Virus record (IMG/VR): IMGVR_UViG_3300010354_000103 | Location: 1 to 58,168 of that record | Origin: a virus | DNA: 58,168 nt | Reading direction: 5' to 3' (one strand) | Part shown: positions 2,732-51,162 of the stretch, in pieces | How the letters are laid out: each line of letters opens with the position of its first letter | Position numbering within the stretch: position 1 is the first letter of the stretch | Position numbers and translations under genes: made by a program | The notes under the pieces: model-generated | Databases searched by the model: none | The model's input: the letters and a program-made list of their open reading frames with translations, nothing else | Told to the model about the DNA's origin: nothing

Positions 2732-2960
2732 TTTGTAGTTCTTTTTGTAATTGACTTGCCATTCTATTAATTTTTCTTTCCATTATCCATGCCGCTATTT
2801 TATTATTTGGATGATAAGCAGCAAGATAATAAAATCGTTTAATATTGACAACTACCATTTTTCCCATCAATTCAATAAATTTGCCAACATTAGGATCCAC
2901 CACAATCATGTATGCTAATACAGCAAAAATAATAAAGATGGCATAGTAGTATGTTGTCAT
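2706..2960 (-). CDS. 84-aa membrane-anchored protein
   Basis: I start this gene at the ATG at 2960, which forms an ATGA overlap with the stop of the upstream 62-aa gene. An in-frame TTG at 2975 is less likely. The product begins MTTYYYAIFIIFAVLAYMIVV, a strong N-terminal membrane anchor. An amphipathic, basic helical remainder follows (NKIAAWIMERKINRMASQL). It could be a small inner-membrane protein. No family is recognised. Confidence 0.65.
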   Translation of the reverse strand: MTTYYYAIFIIFAVLAYMIVVDPNVGKFIELMGKMVVVNIKRFYYLAAYHPNNKIAAWIMERKINRMASQLQKELQNDSLRQTD

Positions 2961-3145
2961 TCTTCTAATTCCCAATCATCTTTTTCTTTTTTACGAAGTT
3001 TTTTAAGTTCTTTCATCATAGTTTTAATTTCTTGATAAGCATCTTCAGGATTCATCCTGTTAGTGATTTCAAGACCTATGACATATTGAACTTTATCTCC
3101 AAAGCGAGCAAGTGCTCGCTCAAAAGCAGTTAAATCTTCATACAT
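2957..3145 (-). CDS. Hypothetical 62-aa helical protein
   Basis: A 62-residue charged helical protein (MYEDLTAFERALARFGDKVQ...) with a lysine/glutamate-rich C-terminal helix (MKELKKLRKKEKDDWELEE) that could form a coiled coil. It begins 3 nt downstream of the adenine methylase stop and its own stop overlaps the next ATG (ATGA). This looks like a conserved small cyanophage protein, but I assign no function. Confidence 0.7.
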   Translation of the reverse strand: MYEDLTAFERALARFGDKVQYVIGLEITNRMNPEDAYQEIKTMMKELKKLRKKEKDDWELEE

Positions 3146-3147
3146 AT

Positions 3148-3993
3148 TTAGACCTCAACTAGAAACGATTCTAGCACGGATTTTGGTTTTTGTGTCGGAT
3201 GTTTGGGATGCTTGACAATCACCAACTCAGTTTTTTCGTACCGTTTGGTGCCAGACATTTGATAAGGAAATGTTAAATACCTAAATTCAGTCCATCCCTG
3301 GTACAATTCACGAACAGCATCACTGTTGTCATAAGACATCACGAACCCACCTTTATGATGCTTCAAGGTATCACAAAACTGTTCATGATCAAATGATTTG
3401 TGGAGAGCACCATCTTTGCCATAATAGTGGCTAACAGTCTCATAATATGGAGGATCCAGGTATAAAAAGTCATTTTCGTGCTTCGGGATGGTGTCGAAGC
3501 AACTGCCGTAGGCAAACGACAGGTTGGGGTTGTGAAAATTCCTAAGTTTATCGATTCCAGCAATTCTGAACTCTGCTCTAGATTTAACAGTGGAACATCC
3601 GATCTTACCTGAGTACGAACCCTTAATTGCAATGTAAAATGACCATGCTCGGGTGAACTTATCCTCACTATCTAACAACGGAAGGAAAGATTTGTAGTGA
3701 TCGCTATCAATCAAGGGGAAGTGCTTGGTAACCTCGTCAGCGATGCCAGGAGCGCCTCCAGCGGTCACAATCTCCCAGAAGTCGGCAAGGGGTCGAAAGA
3801 TGTCATATGCCTGTACCTTGACGCCCTGAGACGCCAGCAGCATCTCTGTGGATCCTCCTCCCATGAATGGAGACACGATCTCAGTGATGCCAGGATTCAC
3901 ATCACGAATGATCTGAATTAGATCTTTTTTCATCCTGTTCTTACCACCAGCGTAGCGATACAGGGAATGGTCAGTTAGTTTAGATGAGGCCAT
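3148..3993 (-). CDS. dam: DNA adenine methyltransferase, Dam/D12 class
   Basis: This is a 281-residue SAM-dependent N6-adenine methyltransferase of the D12 (T4 Dam/MboI) class. The order of motifs fits the family: YAGGKNRM near residues 14-21, PFMGGGSTE at 42-50 (SAM-binding FxGxGs type) and the catalytic DPPYY at 180-184. The length is close to T4 Dam (about 259). The likely target is a short GATC-like site, but specificity cannot be read from sequence. It overlaps the HNH gene by 19 nt and is the last member of a helicase-HNH-methylase unit. The role could be self-marking against a host or phage nuclease. Confidence 0.9.
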   Translation of the reverse strand: MASSKLTDHSLYRYAGGKNRMKKDLIQIIRDVNPGITEIVSPFMGGGSTEMLLASQGVKVQAYDIFRPLADFWEIVTAGGAPGIADEVTKHFPLIDSDHYKSFLPLLDSEDKFTRAWSFYIAIKGSYSGKIGCSTVKSRAEFRIAGIDKLRNFHNPNLSFAYGSCFDTIPKHENDFLYLDPPYYETVSHYYGKDGALHKSFDHEQFCDTLKHHKGGFVMSYDNSDAVRELYQGWTEFRYLTFPYQMSGTKRYEKTELVIVKHPKHPTQKPKSVLESFLVEV

Positions 3994-4964: not shown

Positions 4965-6199
4965 CGGTTAACAACAGAAATAGCGGGTTTGCCTTGAACG
5001 AAAATAGTATCAACCAGATTCTGGAGACGTTGAATAGTACGCTGACCGTAGTTCTTGAAGACAGGAACAGTCACGAAACCAGTGGGTTTACGATACATGG
5101 AGAAGTTGCCAGCAGCAATCTTACCACTGGAGAGGTCAGCAGCGTCATCTTTGTTAAGACGGATAACCCTACCGATAGTCTGTGCCATCTCGATCACATC
5201 GAGAGTACGAAGAAGAATGGTGTGGGTGAGACCATGAACGTTGATACCCTCAGCAAGAATGCTATAGTGGAAAATTACAAATTTACGATTAGGATCTTTG
5301 CCCCACAGATTAAAAGTGTCAAAGAATACCTCACGATCAACCTTGTCACTGTTGACCCAAGCACCATACTTGCTAGTGATGTGAAGAACATCAAATCCAC
5401 GATCTTGCAGATCTTGAATAGCAGTAGTTTGAGACAACAGATTCCACATAACCTTGCTGCTAGGAACTGCCACAAGAATCTTGTGATTGACATCAGCATC
5501 CATCTCGTCAATCATGTTGATGAGAGTGACGTGATCAGTGTTACAAGCAAGATCACCCTTGAGACGTTCGTAGTCAACGATATAAGGGACAACAGTGGGA
5601 GGAAGGATATAACCTTGCTCAACCATTTCTGGGGCAGGAACATCACAGATTACTTTACCATACACATCGGCATCATTCATGCCAGGTTTAGCAAAGGTAT
5701 TAGAATGCTTGGGGGTAGCAGTAAAGAAGTAACAACGATCAGCAGCGGCAGAAAAGTATTCTGTGGCAGGAAAGAAGTTACGTTTTACAGAATTGTGTGC
5801 CTCATCGAAGTAGATAGTGTGGACATCTACACCAGACTGCTGTACCCGAGAGAGGGAGTTATAAGTTGTGAAAATCAGTTTGTTGTAGGAGTTATGACTC
5901 TCCACCCACTGATTAATGACATTAGGACGAGTCGTGCTGAAGTGATGAGTTTCACCACTGTGAACATGAAGAACCGAAGCATTAGTAATATGCTCAAGAA
6001 ATTCAGCAGACAGTTGCTCAGCAAGCAAAATGCGGGGAGCAACCACGACAATAGTGGCAGCATTCACCGTATCAAAGATACGCTTACAGTCAAAAATCAT
6101 GGTGGGAGTCTTACCAGCACCAGTGGGCATGACAAGTTGACCAATGTTATGCTGCTCCATAGCAGCACAACCACGCTGTTGATGGGGTCGAAGCAACAT
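4961..6199 (-). CDS. SF2 DEAH-box helicase, ResIII-like
   Basis: This is a 412-residue superfamily 2 helicase core. PTGAGKT (residues 25-31, Walker A), DEAH (132-135, Walker B), TATP (160-163, motif III) and QTIGRVIR near residue 350 (motif VI) are all present. The start is placed at the ATG at 6199, because the upstream in-frame TTG would lie inside a terminator hairpin. The protein lacks the T4 UvsW N-terminal domain, so it resembles the motor part of type I/III restriction or ResIII-type proteins more than UvsW. It is first in a unit with HNH and Dam genes. A long opposite-strand ORF here is a shadow. Confidence 0.85.
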   Translation of the reverse strand: MLLRPHQQRGCAAMEQHNIGQLVMPTGAGKTPTMIFDCKRIFDTVNAATIVVVAPRILLAEQLSAEFLEHITNASVLHVHSGETHHFSTTRPNVINQWVESHNSYNKLIFTTYNSLSRVQQSGVDVHTIYFDEAHNSVKRNFFPATEYFSAAADRCYFFTATPKHSNTFAKPGMNDADVYGKVICDVPAPEMVEQGYILPPTVVPYIVDYERLKGDLACNTDHVTLINMIDEMDADVNHKILVAVPSSKVMWNLLSQTTAIQDLQDRGFDVLHITSKYGAWVNSDKVDREVFFDTFNLWGKDPNRKFVIFHYSILAEGINVHGLTHTILLRTLDVIEMAQTIGRVIRLNKDDAADLSSGKIAAGNFSMYRKPTGFVTVPVFKNYGQRTIQRLQNLVDTIFVQGKPAISVVNR

Positions 6200-6224
6200 A
6201 AAGAATACGAATTTCAATACACAT

Positions 6225-6253
6225 AGTATGGCATAAAAAAAGGGGTCAGTCAA
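6225..6253 (-). promoter_or_regulatory. sigma70-type promoter for helicase unit
   Basis: On the minus strand TTGACT (6248-6253) and CATACT (6225-6230) are separated by exactly 17 bp, close to the bacterial TTGACA/TATAAT consensus. The box lies 26 bp upstream of the helicase ATG. The six -35 bases are exactly the loop of the terminator hairpin that ends the fibre operon. The -10 is only 4/6, so strength is uncertain. Confidence 0.55.
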
Positions 6254-6260
6254 GACCCCT
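6234..6260 (-). terminator. Rho-independent terminator of the fibre operon
   Basis: The minus-strand sequence forms a 7-bp stem, AGGGGTC/GACCCCT (6254-6260 with 6241-6247), with a 6-nt loop, followed directly by seven T residues. It lies 7 bp past the stop of the last gene in the leftward fibre operon and just before the helicase gene. Confidence 0.85.
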
Positions 6261-6267
6261 GTGACAG

Positions 6268-6651
6268 TTATTCAACTGGTTGTGGTGACGGTATCAAATA
6301 TGAATATCCGTTTAAAGAATCATTAGCATATGCCAAACATCCACTACTAAAAATAAAAAACTGAACAAAATAGTCTGGATCTCCACTTTTATTTTGAGGA
6401 AAATTTTCTAATCCAAACTGATAAGCATCTTCTTCACTATCAAATTCTAAGAATGTAAATTCATTATACATGAATTTATCAAAGAAATCAACTCTATCAG
6501 AATCAAAATTAGATTTATAAACTGAGTAAATCTGATTTAGTTTTTCGGCATCCTCAGCAGCATCTGGACCTGTGGTTCTAATAATCATCACAGTTGTATC
6601 CAATCTTTCTGTGACATTCATAATAAATTCAATAAAATCTCTTGCTATCAT
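6268..6651 (-). CDS. Hypothetical 127-aa protein, end of fibre operon
   Basis: An acidic soluble protein beginning MIARDFIEFIMNVTERLD. It has no recognisable motif. Its ATG overlaps the stop of the putative tail-fibre chaperone as TAATG and it is followed by the operon terminator, so it is the last gene of the fibre transcription unit. By position it may help fibre folding or attachment, but nothing in the sequence shows this. A SEEDAYQFGLENF stretch resembles small alpha/beta domains that cannot be named. Confidence 0.7.
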   Translation of the reverse strand: MIARDFIEFIMNVTERLDTTVMIIRTTGPDAAEDAEKLNQIYSVYKSNFDSDRVDFFDKFMYNEFTFLEFDSEEDAYQFGLENFPQNKSGDPDYFVQFFIFSSGCLAYANDSLNGYSYLIPSPQPVE

Positions 6652-7598
6652 TATTCTTCTCCTACAGTGAATTTAGGGAAATCTTCAATATCATTTAGTA
6701 AAGAATACTTTTCAATCACATCATATAATTGTTTTGGAATGGGAACACCACCTTCTTTTGCTCTTACATATTCGTTAAGTGCTACTTTCAGTTTAGCGTC
6801 AACTTTACTCATTGCTGAAGAAGTGTTTAAATGAGTTTCATAAGGAACAAATTGATCTGGAGTTTCTAGATAATTAGATCCATCATTATTTGGATATTGT
6901 AATTTATATTCTTCAGGGTTAATAGGCCATTTAAAATCTTCTTTATAAATTAAAAAATCAATCTCTTCTTCGAAATCTTCTGGTTTTTTTGGAGAATTTC
7001 TAACAAATTCTCTCCATTTAATCCACAAATCTTTTTCTCCAGGAAATGATTCTGGAGCATCTGGTAGAATTCTCCAATCAGTTTCTCTAAGCATTCTTTC
7101 TGATGTAGAAAGAATATCTAAGTACATACTATCCAAAAACTCTTGTTTTCTAGCAATAGAAACTAATTGCTCATATTGTTTAATCTCTTCGTTTGTATTG
7201 TGAACAAATACTGCTGCTTTTAAAGCCTCAAAAAGTTCTTTAGCATTTTCCTGAGTGAAATTCTTATACGAATAATTTACCCAATATGTTTCTTTGGTTT
7301 CAAAATTATATTTTAGTTTTTCTTTTTCTAAGATAACTTTCCCATTTTGATGTACAGCAAATAATATAATTCTATCATTTTCATTTGTCCACTCATCAGG
7401 TAAATATTCCAACAAATTTTTATTTACAGTATCATTTAAATGAACTGCCTGGTATTCATATTCCTTAGTGGCAGGATTTACTACCCTCACATAAATCAAT
7501 CTTGCTTTTGCATCATACTCTATCAAAGTTGGATTATCTTCTGGCAATTCCAACTTCTGAAAGACAAAATCTTCAGGATTAAAAACAGGTTTGCTCAT
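6651..7598 (-). CDS. Putative tail-fibre assembly chaperone
   Basis: The 315-residue acidic protein contains, at about residues 165-200, the pattern R-x-TDW-x-x-LPD-then-W-x-x-W/Y-R-x-x-x-R (LRETDWRILPDAPES ... LWIKWREFVRNSP). This is the signature of the phage tail-assembly-chaperone domain (Phage_tail_APC type) found downstream of fibre genes. A second, weaker segment follows (EDFKWPINPEEYKLQYP). It lies 25 bp downstream of the 1948-aa fibre gene, the classic location. It probably aids folding or trimerisation of one or more fibres. The N-terminal 150 residues are not recognised. Confidence 0.6.
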   Translation of the reverse strand: MSKPVFNPEDFVFQKLELPEDNPTLIEYDAKARLIYVRVVNPATKEYEYQAVHLNDTVNKNLLEYLPDEWTNENDRIILFAVHQNGKVILEKEKLKYNFETKETYWVNYSYKNFTQENAKELFEALKAAVFVHNTNEEIKQYEQLVSIARKQEFLDSMYLDILSTSERMLRETDWRILPDAPESFPGEKDLWIKWREFVRNSPKKPEDFEEEIDFLIYKEDFKWPINPEEYKLQYPNNDGSNYLETPDQFVPYETHLNTSSAMSKVDAKLKVALNEYVRAKEGGVPIPKQLYDVIEKYSLLNDIEDFPKFTVGEE

Positions 7599-7623
7599 TG
7601 TTATCGTTTTTTTACTATTTATT

Positions 7624-10600
7624 TTAGTATGCTTTGATTAACCACTTAACCCAAGTATATGCCGTCATCAATGGAACTTTTTGTTGAGGTGATAAACTAG
7701 GAGTAGGAATTAATTGTTTATTAGCATTTAATGTAAATTTACCAGGAAGTACTTCAATTCCAAGATCAGCAGCTGTTTTAATAATAGTAACCGAAGTTGT
7801 TGAAGGAGTTCCAGTATATGCCGTTCCATGTTCATCTACGTTTCCATAGCTGAATGTAGTGTTAATATTAGTGATTGGACTTAAAGATAGATAATGGTTG
7901 TGATTATTTTTAGTTGTAGGATTCCATTGTACAACACTCACACTTCTTCCAGGAATATCAATGGCAGCGACAAATTTGTATATACCACCACCAGCAGAAA
8001 CATTGCCAACTGAAGTCGTAAATGGTGTAGTAGTTAAATTGATATAAGAATTAATTTCATTATAATTTGTGTCGCCAATATTACCAATATTGGTTTGCTG
8101 ATAAGCAACTTGATCCCAAACTGCTGTAATATGAGTTCCATTATAACCTGGAGGTCCATATGTCAAACATCCACTTGTTGAAGGAGCCCATGGTTCGGCA
8201 GTTTTTAACCATACTGTGCTTGTATCTAATTGACTTAAAATAGTATTTTCATCAGTTAATGCTACAGAGTTAGCAAAACCATTCACAGATGATGAAGGTT
8301 TAACCATATAACCCCAGATATTAACTGGACATGAGGCAGAAGAGTTTGTTGGAGATCCTCCTAAAGTAATACCTGAACTAAAAGCACTAGTTCTACCTCC
8401 ATTACCATTCCAGTAAATAATACCTTTTGATCCAGTTCCTCCAGTTGTTGGATCTGGTTGTCCAGATACTAATAAATGTGTATGTGATGGAACTTCTGTT
8501 AATTTTGCCTGTTTTGTTTGAATAGCAGCAGAAATTTGACCACCAGTAGTAAATTCTACTTGACCAGTAACATCAGTATATCCTGTGGTTGCTATAGTTC
8601 CAATAACAAAATAGTCACTTTCTAAAGCAGTTAATCCAGTGCCAGGAGTTTCTACCTGTGGAATTGATTGAGCACTAGGAACTGCTATTTGATCAATATA
8701 CCATAATCCACCATGAGATCCAGGAATTGTATTTGACTTATTAGCACTAGATTTTGCTGGACCATAATCAGGAATTAAAGCTGGAGATGACGAAGCATTG
8801 CCATCTACAGGACCAGTACCAACAACTTTTTTATTCCTCATGTCTGGTAGTCTAAACTCACCACCAACATTTGCACCATATGTAGTTCCAATAATACTAT
8901 ACAGCAAAGGATAATCAGTAGGACTTACGTATGATCCATCACACAAAATCCATCCTGGATATCTAGAATCAGCTTTGCCATTTAAGTTGCCCCAGTTATC
9001 ATTATAACTAACATCTTTGAATATAGGCATTATTGCTCCAATAGGAAGACCATCCATCTTGGTTTCAAATTTAATTTCATTACCACCAGCAACTTGTACC
9101 ATATTCAAACTGCTATACCATTGTCCCAATATTGGATCTGGTGTTGGTGCTGGACTGACAACGGTAAACGTAGTTGTATAAGAACCAACCGTCACATTCG
9201 AACTAACAGAAAATCCTGCTATACCACTAGACAATAATCTAATAGTAAGAGTATCACCATTGCTAACCAATATTGGTAAAGCAGAAGTATATTGGTTAAA
9301 AGCAGAACCATTTTTGCTTATTAAAGCACCATTAGTAGCATATGCTCCAACTGTAGTCCCTAATCCAGCTACAGTAATAGTATTACTATTTGTGTTTGTA
9401 CTTACTGCTGTAGCAATAACAGTTGGGAATAAAAATGGAGTTGGAGATGTTCCAAATACGCCAGCATTTGTAACAGTCCATGTAGTGGAATAATCACCAG
9501 CGGCAATATTCCATGTTTTCGATTCTCCAACTACATTTGATGTAGTATATTTTAATTTTATAACATCATAGAGAGATACTGTAGTGCTGGATAATCCAGT
9601 ATCTACGTCATTTAAAACAATGGTAGGTAATGTGCCAGTTTGACCACTAGTATTCGTTATACTAAACGGAATAGTATCATCAACATTTTGAATAGTTACA
9701 CTATTACTATAATAAGTGGTATTTAAATTTCTATTACTTAAATCGATAAAACTAAATGAAGTGGGTGTGTTGTCTGGTTGAACACCAGTAGCAACGGTCC
9801 AAGTTTGTGAAGCAGAACTACCTACCGTGACTAAAGATGAAACCTGAGCAGAATAAGAAGATGATGTTAATATCCTTAGCTTAAATCCTTGACCATTAGT
9901 AATTGTTCTTGGCGAAGCAGAAAAAGTATCACATGTTGTTCCATTACAGATAGAAATTAAAGCTCCATTACCAGCTGTAATTGGAACGGAAGTATTAATA
10001 CCTGTGATTTGTACAATATCACTATCTACTAAAGTATTAATTGGTTGATTATTTAAGTTTGGTATAGTAAAAGTATTTGGAACATCATCTGGAACTGAAC
10101 CAGTCTCTACAGTCCAATATTGAGTTACAGTACCAACAGTAATAGTTAGTGTATACACAGTAAAATAAGAATCACCTGTAGTCATTCTCAACTGAATATA
10201 TTCATTATTTTTTACAACTCCCCCTTGACTCCATGACCCACACCCAGTTCCCTGTCCAGTACATACTCTCACTGCTTGAGAAAATCCATTACTGGTAACG
10301 CTAACTGGAACTTCACCAGTAATTCCAGTTATTTGTACATAATCGCTAGTATATTGTACACTTGGATTAGCATTAGTTACTCCAGTAAAAGAAAATGAAT
10401 CTGGAGTAAAATCTTGTGGTGGCCATCCAACAGTAACATATCCATCTAAATTAGTTCCTGCTCCTAAATTATCTGGAGTGGCAGCTACTGTAACAATGGA
10501 TGAATTGTAATAAGATCCACCACCGATACCACCATTAGCATCCAAGTCAACTGTAGCAATTACCCCACTAAATTCGTCAACTAAACTCGTATTTAATGTT

Positions 10601-45050: not shown

Positions 45051-47378
45051 TTACCAGGGATTATAATAGTTGGGAGCTACTGGACTTCTTGTTGAAAGAG
45101 TAAGAGCACTTGTTGCTCCAATAGGAGATAGAGTAGAAGGTGATGATGCTGTTGATGAAAAACCTTTTCCTAGAAGAATGTTAGTTGCTGCTTGTTGTGC
45201 TTGTTGTTTGGTTAACTTTTGATTTGGTTTTACTGGTTGTTTTGCTGGTTGTGGAGTGTTTTGAACGGGAGTTCTAGCAAGAGATGGAGAGGTCACTTGT
45301 CCAGTTGTTGCTCTTCTTACTCCATCAATTTTAGACAAAGCAATAGAACCTTTAGTTACCTTGCCGCTTTGATTACCTCCAATTATATCTACATAACCAT
45401 CTTTAGGTGTGCCAGCAGCAAACATAACATGTGTTCTAGATCCGCCGCCATAGTCCCCAACAATTACATCTCCTGGTTGAATTTGCTGTTTATCCACAGG
45501 AGTACCCCAATTCAAAAAACTATCAGCCATAGCTGAACCAGATCCTTGAATACCATTTCTTTTAAGTTGTGAATTTACATAAGCAGCACACCATGGCTGC
45601 TGAGTTGGATCCACGGTTCCTGTAGCACCACTAGCAATAATTTCATCTTTCATATCAGATGCTCCTTTACCAACATCTGCTTCTAGATCAGCCATTAAAC
45701 TACCAGGAGTGGCACCAGGAGGATTAGATCCACCTCCACCACCCCCTCCTCCTTTTGCTTTCGCTTTTTTGGGAGGTTTACCACCACCAAGAAAATCTGC
45801 TATGCCCTTCATATCCATGGTAGCAGCAGATGCTTCTCCTCCACCTAATAAGGAACCAACAACAGCAGCAGGTAACCCGAATACTCTAGCTAATGGAGTG
45901 AATAGTTGTGTTAAGAATGGAGCAACAAGTTTTCCAATGCCACCTAATCTTTTAAATACAGATGACATTATAGAAAGCAATAATCCTCCAGCAGCTTGAG
46001 CAGGTAATTGTAATGCTTTAGCTAGATTTTCTCCCATAGTTTTTCCAGCAGAATCTTTCTTCCCTGGTTGGTTTTGCTCCTTTTGCTGACGGAATATATT
46101 TTTTAGTGGATTATTTCTATTGAGAGGTATTACTGATTGACCAGGGCTTAACAAAGTATTTGTAGGGTTATCAACAATTCCACCTCTAGATAATTTTGTT
46201 TGTGACTTTACATTTGACTGTGGTTTTAGTGTAGGTTTTGGTTCAACAATTTTTGCTAATGGTTGAACATTATTTACTGCTGCTGGGGTATCAATATTGG
46301 TTGTCGCTGATTGATTAATATTATTTGTAGATGTTGATGACTGATTAATATTATTTGTAGAAACGGAAGGTGATACTACACCACCCTCAGACATTTTAAA
46401 TCTTTTAAGTGCCCTACCAAACCCTACCTGTCCTCTTCTACGTAATCTTGTTGTTCTTCTACCTAATCCACGTTTAAAATTATTAAACTTTCTTCTTGCT
46501 AATCTTCTTTTTGCCCCTCTTCTCATTCTTCCACGTCTTCCTGGGAGATCAAAATCAAACATCCTACCAAACATATTTCCTCTGTTGCCATCACTTCCTT
46601 CTTCTTCATCATCCTGAGCATAAGGATCTTCAACGCTCATAACGGATGAAAGGTCACTACCTTTTTCTAAATCAGATTCTTTCTGCTGCATTTCCTCAGC
46701 ATTAGCTTGATCAAAATTAAATTCTAACTGCTGAGACTCTGTTTTGTTTTCCTCTTGTTTTAATTTATTATTTTTATTAAAGAAATTCTTAACCGTACTA
46801 AGACCAGAAGTAATCTTTGATACTACAGTAGTAGTTTTAACTTGCTCGTCAGATGATTCTTTTTCTTTGTTAGATAATCCTGTTAACTTATCTGCTATTG
46901 TCTGGTATGATTTTTCTATACCATCAAATGCCACAGTCAACCACGATTTTAGTTTTTTATCTTCTACATTAACTTCTTTACCATCAGCACCTTTCCCAGT
47001 ACCATTTAAATCTAATTCTAGTTGCTTATATGGTTGTGGTGTTACAACAGATTCTCCTCGTATTAGATTGGAAAATCTTTGCTGCTTTGTTAATGCTGGA
47101 TCTTCTGTATCTGAAGGATCATTAGAGAAAGTTCCTTTAGTTCTTCTGAGTAAGTCTCCTCCAAACTCATGTGATAATGCTTTACCAAAGAAATATCCTT
47201 TGCCAGGTTTTTTTATTTCTTCTTCTGGTACACCTTCTTTTCTTTGCTTCTCTGCTTGTTCTTTAGCATATTTTCTTTCCTCCGCTGCCATACTCGCAGC
47301 AGATTTAATCTTATCTCCAACCCATTTCCCTAGATTGCCGTGATTTGCTTTAGTATATGAGACGGATCCGTGTGCCAT
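45051..47378 (-). CDS. Tail-interior protein with CHAP-like peptidase domain
   Basis: A 775-residue protein. Its first ~350 residues (KGYFFGKALSHEFGGDLLRRTKG, later RRGAKRRLARRKFNN) are paralogous to the adjacent 952-aa protein. Residues ~590-693 form a peptidoglycan-hydrolase domain of the CHAP/TIGR02594 kind: PWCAAYVNSQL with the catalytic Cys, PGDVIVGDY, THVMFAAG with the catalytic His, and a GGNQSGKV turn. A SRGGIVDNPTNTLLSPGQSVIPL motif is like tape-measure tails. It may be carried inside the tail tip to open the cell wall. Confidence 0.75.
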   Translation of the reverse strand: MAHGSVSYTKANHGNLGKWVGDKIKSAASMAAEERKYAKEQAEKQRKEGVPEEEIKKPGKGYFFGKALSHEFGGDLLRRTKGTFSNDPSDTEDPALTKQQRFSNLIRGESVVTPQPYKQLELDLNGTGKGADGKEVNVEDKKLKSWLTVAFDGIEKSYQTIADKLTGLSNKEKESSDEQVKTTTVVSKITSGLSTVKNFFNKNNKLKQEENKTESQQLEFNFDQANAEEMQQKESDLEKGSDLSSVMSVEDPYAQDDEEEGSDGNRGNMFGRMFDFDLPGRRGRMRRGAKRRLARRKFNNFKRGLGRRTTRLRRRGQVGFGRALKRFKMSEGGVVSPSVSTNNINQSSTSTNNINQSATTNIDTPAAVNNVQPLAKIVEPKPTLKPQSNVKSQTKLSRGGIVDNPTNTLLSPGQSVIPLNRNNPLKNIFRQQKEQNQPGKKDSAGKTMGENLAKALQLPAQAAGGLLLSIMSSVFKRLGGIGKLVAPFLTQLFTPLARVFGLPAAVVGSLLGGGEASAATMDMKGIADFLGGGKPPKKAKAKGGGGGGGGSNPPGATPGSLMADLEADVGKGASDMKDEIIASGATGTVDPTQQPWCAAYVNSQLKRNGIQGSGSAMADSFLNWGTPVDKQQIQPGDVIVGDYGGGSRTHVMFAAGTPKDGYVDIIGGNQSGKVTKGSIALSKIDGVRRATTGQVTSPSLARTPVQNTPQPAKQPVKPNQKLTKQQAQQAATNILLGKGFSSTASSPSTLSPIGATSALTLSTRSPVAPNYYNPW

Positions 47379-47408: not shown

Positions 47409-50267
47409 TTAATTATTAGCAAGTCTCATTTGTTGTAGAGTAAGATAAGCATTATATGGTGTCTGTGGTTGATATGTTCCTGAAGTATCTCCATAACCAG
47501 TAGCTGCTGGTACAGTCAATCCTCTAGCACCAGAATTCATATTAAATAAATTCATAGAACCAGCACCACTATTCTGTTGAATAGCTGGTATAGGAACTAT
47601 TGGTGTAGATCCAGACTGTGTGTTTGATTTTGTCGATACATTTCCTCTTGATAAAGAAGACAATGGATTTGGCGTATTAGAAGGATTACTTGCTGGCATT
47701 GGTTTAGCAGGAGATCCACTAGTAGTAAATGTTCCTTGCTCTCCCCTCAATAAAGCAGCATGAATTTGTTTAGAATACTCCCATCTAGCACCAGTATCTC
47801 CCCATCCAATATATTTGTAGGCAGCTTCTTTTAATTGTTGCTCAGATGAATTTGGATTCATAAATTCATCCAACAAACCGTATTGTCTAAGTTCTTCTTT
47901 GATCCACTTTACTTGTTCTCCATTGGTAGCTGTTTCTAAAGGTTTTCCTAGGAATTTTTCAGCGTTTACAATTCTAGATCGATTCCAACTAATCAATCCT
48001 TTGTTAGTACCAGCTCCATCATTAAGTACCCAAGGAGTTCTTTGCCCTTTCCATCCAGATTCTTGCTGTACATTTCCTGAAAGAATAGCAGCTGCTAAAG
48101 GTGGAAAACCTTCTCCCATAAACAATCTAGCACCACCAATCATATCAGTAGCATCTCCACCTGGAGGAGTTGGTGGTTGTGTGGGAACTTTAGCATCTTC
48201 ATCATCTCCTCCGCTCCCACCTCCAGTAAAAAATCCTATTAGTTTTTTAAATAACCCAAGTATACCACCATCTTTATCTGGCTCTTTTACATTACCTAAA
48301 TTGTTTCCTACTTTTGTATCTAAATTTAATTCAGGTTTACCATATATTTTAGCAAGTGGTGATATAGTTTGTGAGATAAATGGTTTTAGAGCAGCAGCAC
48401 TAGGTCCAGCACTTTCTATAACACTATCAGTTGCTCCTAAAATAGTAGCAATAGATGCTGCTGCTGGATCTCCTCCACCTATTAAATTACCAAGTGATAA
48501 AAATGGATTTGCTGGAGTAATTAATTCTGGTCCCGCTTCCCCTACCATAGCAGGAACCATTCCGCCTTTAGATAATTTTACAACTCCTCCTTCAGACATT
48601 TTTTTCTTTGGTTTGTCTGGATTATCTGGCTTAGAAAAGATATCAAATATATCTTTACCTAATAAAGCAATATCAGCACCCCAAGAAACAGCCGTGGCAA
48701 CAGCTGCTACTGGAGCTCCTATAATAGTGCCAGCGGCTCCTGCTGCCACAGCATCAGCAGCAGCACCAAACCCTGCTATACCTGCTCCAATCTTATCTCC
48801 TCTAGAAGCTCTATAAGCAGCATCAGCACCACCAGTAAGAGCACCGACACCAGGAATCGCTTTAGCACCAAATCCGCCAAATGCTTTTCCTAATTTTACC
48901 ATCTTAGGATTTTCAGCAAAGAATTTTCCAGCTTTGGTGAGACCAGTTTTACCAGCATCTAATGCTTTTCCACCTATTCTCCTACCAAAATCTAATGCTT
49001 TACCACCTTGTCTCTGTATAAACTTACCAGCTCTACCACCTTTCTCAGCAATCTTTTCTCCTGTTCTTCTAATACCATCTGCTATCTTACGTTTACCAGC
49101 ATTAAATTTCCTTCTTGCTAATCTTCTCCTTGCCCCTCTTCTCCTAGGTTTTCCACTAGGACCATCTGGTAAATCTATATCAACTCCTGGTCCACAATCA
49201 CAACTATCATCATCTTCTTCATCATCATTACCAGCAATAAAGTCCCATGCCTTTTCTAATAATCCTTTTCCCTTTTTCTTATAAGGATCTTCAACCATCT
49301 GAACACTAGAATTATCAGCACCCTGTTCTAATGCCGCCTCTCTAGCAGCTGCTTCTCTTTTATCTGCTGCTTGTTTAATTAAATTTAAACTCTTTAATTT
49401 TAAAGTGTTTAATGTTTTTTGTAATACATTACTCTCTTTAATTGATTCTTTTACTTGTATAAATTTTTCTGATAAAATTTCTATAATAGTATTTTCTTGT
49501 GAGACTTGCTGCTTCGCTTTATCTTTATCCAATGATAAATTAGATAGAGATTTATCTACTCGTTCAAAACTGGTTTGTAATTTTTTTACTGCCTTTTGTA
49601 TCTGTTGACCTAAAGAATTATCAACAACAGTGACATACTTGTTAGTATCGAATAGAGATGGTTGTGTATATGGATCTTTTACTGGAGATGATGTTGTTTT
49701 TGCTTTGAGGGGTTCATCAGGTCTCTGTAATTTAGCAGCAAACCTTTCTCCTTTAGAAAGAGATGGATCTTGTTCTGCTGTAGGATCATTTGAAAAAGAT
49801 CCTTTAGTTCGGTTGATAAGATCACCACCAAATTCAAATCCTAATGCCTTCTTTAAAAAATATCCTTTTGGTTTAGGTGCTTCTCCTGCTAACTTAGCAT
49901 TTCTCCTGGCAGTTGCTGCCAAAGAGAAAGAGGACATAATTTTACGTCCTATAAAAGCATTGAAGTTAGGATCCTTTCCTTGAATAGGTTGGTAACGTTG
50001 TAATTTTATTTTAATTTCTTTTACTTTCTTTACCTTTACTCCCTTTACCTTCTTAGGTTTTTTTATTTTAACTGGAGGTGGAGGTGCCTGTACATCTTCT
50101 ATAAGTTTATCTAAATTCTTATCAAAAGCATTTGCCATTCTTTCGGCAAGATCTTCTGATGGAACATCAACATCTATAACAACAGGATCATTTTCATTTG
50201 ATTGCACCTCATTAATAGAAAGTTCTAGACTTCTTTGTTCTAGTTCTGAGTTGCCTTCTTGATTCAT
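47409..50267 (-). CDS. Tape-measure-like protein with tail-lysozyme domain
   Basis: A 952-residue protein directly downstream of the tail-assembly chaperone, the usual tape-measure site. It has an acidic start, lysine-rich basic tracts (KIKKPKKVKGVKVKKVKE), a helical region (~residues 200-320), a hydrophobic Ala/Gly stretch (~480-540, possible membrane insertion) and the tape-measure motif GGMVPAMVGEAGPELITP near 565-580. At about 720-835 is a phage-tail-lysozyme domain: ILSGNVQQESGW with a candidate catalytic Glu, GLISWNRSR, QVKWIKEEL. The start overlaps the -1-frame stop of the chaperone (ATGA). Confidence 0.75.
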   Translation of the reverse strand: MNQEGNSELEQRSLELSINEVQSNENDPVVIDVDVPSEDLAERMANAFDKNLDKLIEDVQAPPPPVKIKKPKKVKGVKVKKVKEIKIKLQRYQPIQGKDPNFNAFIGRKIMSSFSLAATARRNAKLAGEAPKPKGYFLKKALGFEFGGDLINRTKGSFSNDPTAEQDPSLSKGERFAAKLQRPDEPLKAKTTSSPVKDPYTQPSLFDTNKYVTVVDNSLGQQIQKAVKKLQTSFERVDKSLSNLSLDKDKAKQQVSQENTIIEILSEKFIQVKESIKESNVLQKTLNTLKLKSLNLIKQAADKREAAAREAALEQGADNSSVQMVEDPYKKKGKGLLEKAWDFIAGNDDEEDDDSCDCGPGVDIDLPDGPSGKPRRRGARRRLARRKFNAGKRKIADGIRRTGEKIAEKGGRAGKFIQRQGGKALDFGRRIGGKALDAGKTGLTKAGKFFAENPKMVKLGKAFGGFGAKAIPGVGALTGGADAAYRASRGDKIGAGIAGFGAAADAVAAGAAGTIIGAPVAAVATAVSWGADIALLGKDIFDIFSKPDNPDKPKKKMSEGGVVKLSKGGMVPAMVGEAGPELITPANPFLSLGNLIGGGDPAAASIATILGATDSVIESAGPSAAALKPFISQTISPLAKIYGKPELNLDTKVGNNLGNVKEPDKDGGILGLFKKLIGFFTGGGSGGDDEDAKVPTQPPTPPGGDATDMIGGARLFMGEGFPPLAAAILSGNVQQESGWKGQRTPWVLNDGAGTNKGLISWNRSRIVNAEKFLGKPLETATNGEQVKWIKEELRQYGLLDEFMNPNSSEQQLKEAAYKYIGWGDTGARWEYSKQIHAALLRGEQGTFTTSGSPAKPMPASNPSNTPNPLSSLSRGNVSTKSNTQSGSTPIVPIPAIQQNSGAGSMNLFNMNSGARGLTVPAATGYGDTSGTYQPQTPYNAYLTLQQMRLANN

Positions 50268-50449
50268 CTCTGTTGAGCTTTCTGTTGTTCTTCTTTCTCT
50301 TTAAGATATTGATTCAATAGGGAAATATAAATGGTTCTTTCCCATGGCATCATTTCTTCAATCTCTGTCAAGCTATATTTATGGTCCTGCATGAGAGTGA
50401 AGTTTGTTCTATAATAATTCTCAAGAGTATTATAAAACAAACTTATCCG
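50264..50449 (-). CDS. -1 frame extension of tail-assembly chaperone (gpT-like)
   Basis: This open frame begins in the last codons of the gp26-type gene and runs 61 codons (RISLFYNTLENYYRTNFTLMQ...) to a stop overlapping the tape-measure ATG. The first internal ATG (50392) has no ribosome-binding site, so it is best read as a -1 frameshift product, giving a 299-residue fusion. The segment is helical with a YSLTEIEEMMPWERTIYISLL core and a charged tail, similar in style to the C-terminal domain of lambda-type gpG-T proteins that binds the tape measure. Independent translation of a 42-aa peptide is the alternative. Confidence 0.7.
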   Translation of the reverse strand, partial: RISLFYNTLENYYRTNFTLMQDHKYSLTEIEEMMPWERTIYISLLNQYLKEKEEQQKAQQR

Positions 50450-50455
50450 AAAAAA
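50400..50455 (-). promoter_or_regulatory. Programmed -1 frameshift signal
   Basis: On the minus strand the heptamer T-TTT-TTC (50449-50455) is in the correct phase with the gp26-type frame. A 4-nt spacer (GGAT) follows. Then comes a stem-loop whose 17-nt arm AAGTTTGTTTTATAATA (50428-50444) pairs with 50400-50416, with a single G:U and an 11-nt loop. The stem starts at the gp26 stop codon. Confidence 0.75.
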
Positions 50456-51162
50456 GACTGTAATCCCTCCAAAGTATAATTGGATTTAATTCCAGTGTTT
50501 GGATTAGTTACACTAAATTCATGACGTAGTACTGGCATGGTATCAAAAAAATTTTGAATCTTTTCAAACTGTTGCTGTGTAAAAGATTCTATGAAACCAA
50601 GCAGCTCTTTCTTTGAAGTTGTGGCAGCATCCCATACTTCATCACCTTGAAAGATCTGATCAATACAACCAACCAGCATTTCAAATACTTCATCAGTAGT
50701 ATCTAAATCATTCTCCATTAAAGTTACACTAACAAAACTATCCATAGCAGGATACTTCATTACCATACCAATGGTATCATCAATCATAATTTTATTTGTG
50801 TGTCCTTCTGGTTTATATACCTCAACATCATTTAAATTAATCTCAACGTTTACTACGGTTTCATTATCATCTTGGCATGTAACTTTCATTGATACTTCTT
50901 CACCAGCAGAAGCAGCTCTAATTTTTAAAAACAAATATTCCAGATCAAAGGAAGCAAGTTCCTCTGGTTTAATACCTCTAGTCAGAATACAGTTCTTTAA
51001 AATATCTTTAACAGCATTCTTAATTTCATTTTCATCTTCAGACTCCATCGCTAGCAATAGAATCTTTTCTTCTTTAACTAAGAAAGGTCTGTATTTAATT
51101 TTCTTTCCTGTAGATGGCAACTCAAGTTCATAAGTTGGTACAGTAGGCTTTGGTAAAGGCAT
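50443..51162 (-). CDS. 26: gp26-like baseplate hub / tail assembly chaperone
   Basis: A 239-residue protein (MPLPKPTVPTYELELPSTGKKIKYRPFLVKEEKILL...) matching the gp26-type protein of T4-like cyanophages, annotated as a baseplate hub assembly subunit. An acidic helical stretch (LAMESEDENEIKNAVKDILKNC) and a VSVTLMENDLDTTDEVFEML segment are seen. It lies just before the tape-measure gene, where lambda-type phages have gpG, and ends LQSFFG in a slippery TTTTTTC context. I therefore propose that it acts as a tape-measure chaperone in long and short forms. It is likely a late gene. Confidence 0.75.
   Translation of the reverse strand: MPLPKPTVPTYELELPSTGKKIKYRPFLVKEEKILLLAMESEDENEIKNAVKDILKNCILTRGIKPEELASFDLEYLFLKIRAASAGEEVSMKVTCQDDNETVVNVEINLNDVEVYKPEGHTNKIMIDDTIGMVMKYPAMDSFVSVTLMENDLDTTDEVFEMLVGCIDQIFQGDEVWDAATTSKKELLGFIESFTQQQFEKIQNFFDTMPVLRHEFSVTNPNTGIKSNYTLEGLQSFFG

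Follow-up and report, generated by a model that had tools for sequence, protein, structure and literature searches.

A slippery T run near the end of a gp26-type gene very probably yields a short and a long tail assembly chaperone in a cyanophage-like virus

How many proteins are made from the end of a gp26-type gene in an uncultured, cyanophage-like virus, and how is the short open frame beyond its stop codon translated? The window analyzed here, a 58,168-base IMG/VR virus record, carries all features of this locus on the minus strand. A sequence-only reading had suggested that a programmed -1 frameshift fuses the two frames. Comparison with relatives indicates that a slippery heptamer at the end of the gene is functional, and on this comparative footing the T run very probably makes ribosomes step back by one base, so that one gene gives rise to a short and a long chaperone.

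The arrangement that had been proposed for the window was confirmed base by base (Table 1). A heptamer of the X_XXY_YYZ type lies in phase close to the end of the upstream gene; TTTTTTC is followed by GGA TAA, the TAA being the gp26 stop. The four nucleotides GGAT separate the heptamer from a stem, whose arms are AAGTTTGTTTTATAATA (50444-50428) and TATTATAGAACAAACTT (50416-50400). The -1 frame starts with CGG ATA AGT and remains open up to a TGA stop (50266-50264) that overlaps the ATG of the next gene at 50267 (ATGA). The predicted fusion of gp26 and the -1 segment comprises 299 aa and reads ...LQSFFRISLFYN... across the junction.

Table 1. Features of the chaperone locus in the window and the basis of their assignment
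Feature	Position	Strand	Details and basis
Tail-tube-type protein, upstream of gp26	52002-51190	-	PF23849 Phage_TTP_2 E 1.2e-51; PHROG 45 tail tube
gp26-type gene, probable short tail assembly chaperone (TAC-N, G-like)	51162-50443	-	239 aa; PF12322, PHROG 150
GGAGGGA, Shine-Dalgarno-like element 5' of the heptamer (candidate stimulator)	50470-50464	-	GAG codon bias
Slippery heptamer T_TTT_TTC	50455-50449	-	sequence; comparison with relatives
-1 frame segment, T-like domain (TAC-C; cyanophage gp51)	50449-50264	-	61 codons from CGG to stop TGA; PHROG 634
Stem-loop, candidate stimulator	50444-50400	-	17 bp, one G:U, 11-nt loop; begins 4 nt past the heptamer
Probable tape-measure protein with tail-lysozyme domain	50267-47409	-	952 aa; Phage_lysozyme2, weak PHROG matches, position; putative role

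Both parts of the locus belong to the T4 gp26/gp51 family, with a PF12322 domain followed by the C-terminal domain of gp51. The gp26-type open reading frame (ORF) matches PF12322 (T4_baseplate) with E 5.7e-74 and PHROG 150 with E 7.3e-78. The -1 ORF matches PHROG 634, named 'baseplate hub assembly catalyst' (E 1.3e-26), and additionally the C-terminal end of PHROG 150 (positions 240-281). The 299-aa fusion aligns unbroken to positions 5-281 of the 282 positions of PHROG 150, and its score amounts to 303.7 bits versus 262.8 bits for gp26 alone; full-length members of this family thus exist. Annotations of S-PM2, P-SSM2, and many others list this -1 segment as gene 51. Aeh1 (3259-3426 of the retrieved piece), S13 (3229-3393), VmeM-32 (3244-3458), and ORM_20 (3169-3364) lack an annotation of the -1 domain, although it is conserved and its frame open.

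The sequence-only reading had named conservation of heptamer, stem, and -1 frame among cyanophages as one of its checks. The first-round relatives consisted of S-PM2 and 80 IMG/VR loci at about 52-66% identity. Every one of these 81 has the heptamer at position -10 relative to the gp26 stop, followed by a -1 frame of about 60 open codons for the same domain wherever the contig extends far enough. In a wider set of 92 loci, 89 harbor T_TTT_TTC and three T_TTT_TTT (Cr30, represented twice, and phiN3). Among 71 distinct 3' ends with the heptamer in place, the codon preceding Phe-Phe specifies S, N, D, or A and always ends in T; Phe-Phe is encoded by TTT TTC in all of them, and adjoining codons drift freely. 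From codon usage, the heptamer would be expected at 14% of loci. The same layout, with either T_TTT_TTC or T_TTT_TTT, is found in KVP40, Moby, Cr30, phiN3, and Desulfovibrio phage 7757, as well as in Aeh1, S13, VmeM-32 (T_TTT_TTT), ORM_20, and IC12; pattern searches of IMG/VR with Cr30, KVP40, and T4 gp51 queries delivered few new loci. Two Vibrio phages, Kuja (Ackermannviridae) and K364 (an unclassified record), show the -1 domain past gp26 (about 2888-3123 and about 3179-3405 of the retrieved pieces, respectively) with CTT TTT replacing T_TTT_TTC, and may use another slippage or a reinitiation route.

The domain combination predicted for the long form is found in frame in T4. T4 gp51 matches PF12322 over residues 1-201 (E 3.9e-52), and aligning the gp26 family profile to T4 gp51 gives a probability of 96.5%. 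A profile of the -1 segments matches T4-type gp51 proteins directly past the PF12322 domain, at about residues 206-247 (213-247 in one protein); against T4 gp26 it produced no match. The predicted fold of gp51 shows the order of elements of gp26 plus three further helices. Since T4 gp51 corresponds to a gp26-type protein with the C-terminal domain in frame, T4 encodes the short and the long form as two genes. Phages of enterobacteria and Acinetobacter and some Aeromonas phages are the main carriers of T4-type gp51 and of the gp29 tape measure; the frameshift form is found in phages of the cyanophage, KVP40, and Aeh1 types.

Two elements flanking the heptamer are candidate stimulators. In the window, a folding energy of -20.4 kcal/mol was computed for the 81-nt region (z = -4.3), a stability that none of 200 dinucleotide shuffles reached. 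Across 70 loci, the 68 nt past the heptamer were compared with shuffles that left codon usage and the -1 protein unchanged; the mean folding z was -2.24, with 84% of loci below -1. Perfect helices of at least 8 bp were present in 74% of loci versus 20% of shuffled sequences. Three main stem sequences, mutually unrelated, occupy registers 39, 40, and 52, typically 4-10 nt past the heptamer. The expectation of a conserved stem thus held for most loci; as a universal element the stem was rejected, several distinct loci lacking it and about a quarter of the representatives being devoid of a notable one. Upstream, GAG makes up 45 of 50 Glu codons at codon -24, whereas the rest of gp26 uses it for 518 of 1,838 (p 2.7e-19). 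The next codon is mostly GGA or GGG, so that a GAGG ends 10 nt ahead of the heptamer. The stem (p 6.6e-6) and the Shine-Dalgarno-like pairing (p 1.5e-4) remained significant when the loci were reduced by clustering to 23 representatives below 65% identity, kinship among the representatives making these p-values optimistic. We tentatively put forward, at somewhat less than even chance, that the signal in cyanophage-type T4 relatives is a three-part, dnaX-like one, consisting of GAGG, the unvarying heptamer T_TTT_TTC, and a stem whose sequence was re-formed in different registers on three or more occasions, and that T4 later swapped this device for duplication of gene 26 and in-frame domain fusion.

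If the -1 ORF were instead a separate gene (gp51), translated from its own start or by termination-coupled reinitiation, the heptamer would be incidental. The annotations of S-PM2 and P-SSM2 follow this view and place a start directly after the gp26 stop, and TAATG/TGATG-type overlaps occur in KVP40 and Moby. An ATG, GTG, or TTG is located at the gp26 stop in roughly half of the loci, in the window a TTG at 50440. In the stretch of -1 frame that precedes the conserved domain, however, 23 of 70 distinct loci lack any ATG, GTG, or TTG, and 41 lack an ATG. The loci therefore cannot all depend on separate initiation, which was rejected as the general route. Furthermore, a separate gene leaves an invariant heptamer amid synonymous drift unexplained, the distance of more than 20 nt between GAGG at -24 and the start is too great for GAGG to serve that start, and the fusion exists naturally in T4 gp51. 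Taken together, a purely separate gene is extremely improbable. A combination of both routes, in which lineages with an ATG at the stop produce the frameshifted long chaperone and additionally some free gp51 domain, is rather unlikely: an in-frame ATG is situated near the stop in 29 of 70 loci, some with fair Shine-Dalgarno pairing, but the start codons are not conserved, and to our knowledge no role of a free gp51 domain has been described.

The family names in Pfam and PHROGs and the annotation of T4 would make gp26 and gp51 parts of the baseplate hub or catalysts of its assembly, with a fusion whose role is unrelated to the tape measure. The predicted fold of gp26 points elsewhere. The model (pLDDT 87.6) was compared with PDB chains, and matches were realigned by VIA-align 2. 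The best match was the tail assembly chaperone gp13 of HK97 (2ob9; Z 6.9 over 84 residues, 4.3 A), followed by YqbN (3klu, Z 6.6) and 3fgx (Z 6.4), both of which we take to be phage chaperone-type proteins, a role not named in their PDB titles; the fourth match had a Z of 4.2. The match to HK97 gp13 covers gp26 residues 1-86, and the top three fall within residues 1-95 of the 239 aa, so that a chaperone-type fold with middling Z is predicted for the N-terminal domain. A Z below 8 can reflect a common arrangement of elements; that three chaperone-type proteins head the ranking of this model by accident is unlikely. A Foldseek search of the gp26 model against the PDB gave no significant match, both HK97 chaperone chains standing among the first six, and a PDB sequence search with gp26 and gp51 profiles returned nothing. 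The predicted model of T4-type gp51 retrieved no chaperone from the PDB, and an NCBIfam search nothing useful.

Gene order also argues against a hub function. The gp26-type gene is located between the gene of the PF23849 protein and that of the 952-aa protein, in the order tail tube, gp26, gp51, and probable tape measure. The latter assignment is a cautious one, the Phage_lysozyme2 match being at the cut-off and the matches to tape-measure PHROGs weak. Moreover, a hub-assembly phenotype would equally follow from failed loading of the tape measure, and chaperones of T4-like phages were identified in 2022, as stated in two later papers (PMC10885494, PMC12846349). A role confined to the hub is thus very unlikely.

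Several observations were made on the neighboring genes. The 952-aa protein and a 775-aa protein (45051-47378, minus strand) are paralogs along a stretch of about 290 residues (33% identity, E 1.8e-31). Their wall-cutting domains differ, a tail lysozyme in the former and CHAP in the latter; either protein could be the tape measure. In S-PM2, a 1167-aa protein encoded past gp51 (5886-9389 of the retrieved piece) combines an N-terminal ADP-ribosyltransferase-like domain (PF01129, E 1.3e-05) with a tail lysozyme. KVP40 encodes a tail-tube-type protein before gp26 (annotated as duplicated gp19; 3213-3959 of the retrieved piece), as does the window.

The invariant heptamer, the conserved -1 frame, missing starts in a third of the loci, the in-frame fusion in T4 gp51, and the HK97-like fold jointly support the view, put forward earlier, that gp26 is a short chaperone accompanied by a frameshifted long form. 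We consider it highly probable that a -1 frameshift yields a G/G-T-like pair, in which gp26 acts as the short TAC-N and the 299-aa TAC-NC as its long partner, and that both coat the tape measure; slippage, its rate, the roles of the stimulators, and tape-measure binding are what we infer from these data. Most ribosomes would stop at the gp26 TAA. A fraction would pause at T_TTT_TTC, where the stem further downstream and base pairing between the 16S rRNA and GGAGGGA, on the upstream side, probably help. The two tRNA-Phe would then slip from UUU-UUC to UUU-UUU, and reading would proceed in the -1 frame for 61 codons, giving a long form that carries the gp51 domain. The product of the next gene, the tape-measure protein, would be coated by many short and few long forms, which would guide polymerization of the tail tube.

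The sequence-only reading had held that no such case existed among T4-like phages. This was mistaken, as far as can be judged from the papers citing the original work: chaperone genes of T4-like phages were identified by Vladimirov, Gautam and Davidson (2022, Virology 566:9-15; via PMC10885494, PMC12846349). According to these papers, some T4-like phages dispense with frameshifting and have a short chaperone gene plus a longer, fused one (PMC10885494, citing Vladimirov et al., 2022), and poly-T -1 frameshift signals are present in TAC-N genes of T4-like phages (PMC12846349, citing Vladimirov et al., 2022). By these accounts the core idea was already published in 2022, and what the present analysis adds is detail on the stimulators and on the range of lineages. 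A literature search on cyanophage frameshifting returned no paper on this locus, and neither the upstream GAGG 10 nt before the heptamer nor the rebuilt conserved stem was found in the literature examined, in which the study of Vladimirov et al. (2022) is represented through citing papers. Hundreds of marine phage genomes list gp51 as a separate gene or miss it, and its annotation would be corrected to the C-terminal part of a frameshifted product. For T4 genes 26 and 51, long regarded as hub-assembly genes, a simple function would follow, and the family offers a test case for a frameshift replaced by gene duplication.

The locus resembles several known systems in part. With gpG/gpG-T of lambda it shares a short form, a slippery site near the gene end, a -1 extension, and the tape-measure gene next to it; the slippery sequence of lambda differs from T_TTT_TTC, and the tail of the present virus is of the contractile T4 type, the likeness resting on layout. 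The -1 signal of Escherichia coli dnaX is composed of a Shine-Dalgarno-like element about 10 nt upstream, the heptamer, and a downstream stem; the three-part layout is the same, whereas the heptamer differs and the protein is unrelated. T4 gp26 and gp51 possess the same two domains, but they are encoded by two genes on opposite strands, and with the in-frame fusion in gp51 a frameshift is not needed. The chaperone locus of Vandenendeviridae and Andersonviridae shares the conserved -1 frame and a poly-T motif before the tape measure, but the motif is GTTTTT and the phage families are others (PMC12846349).
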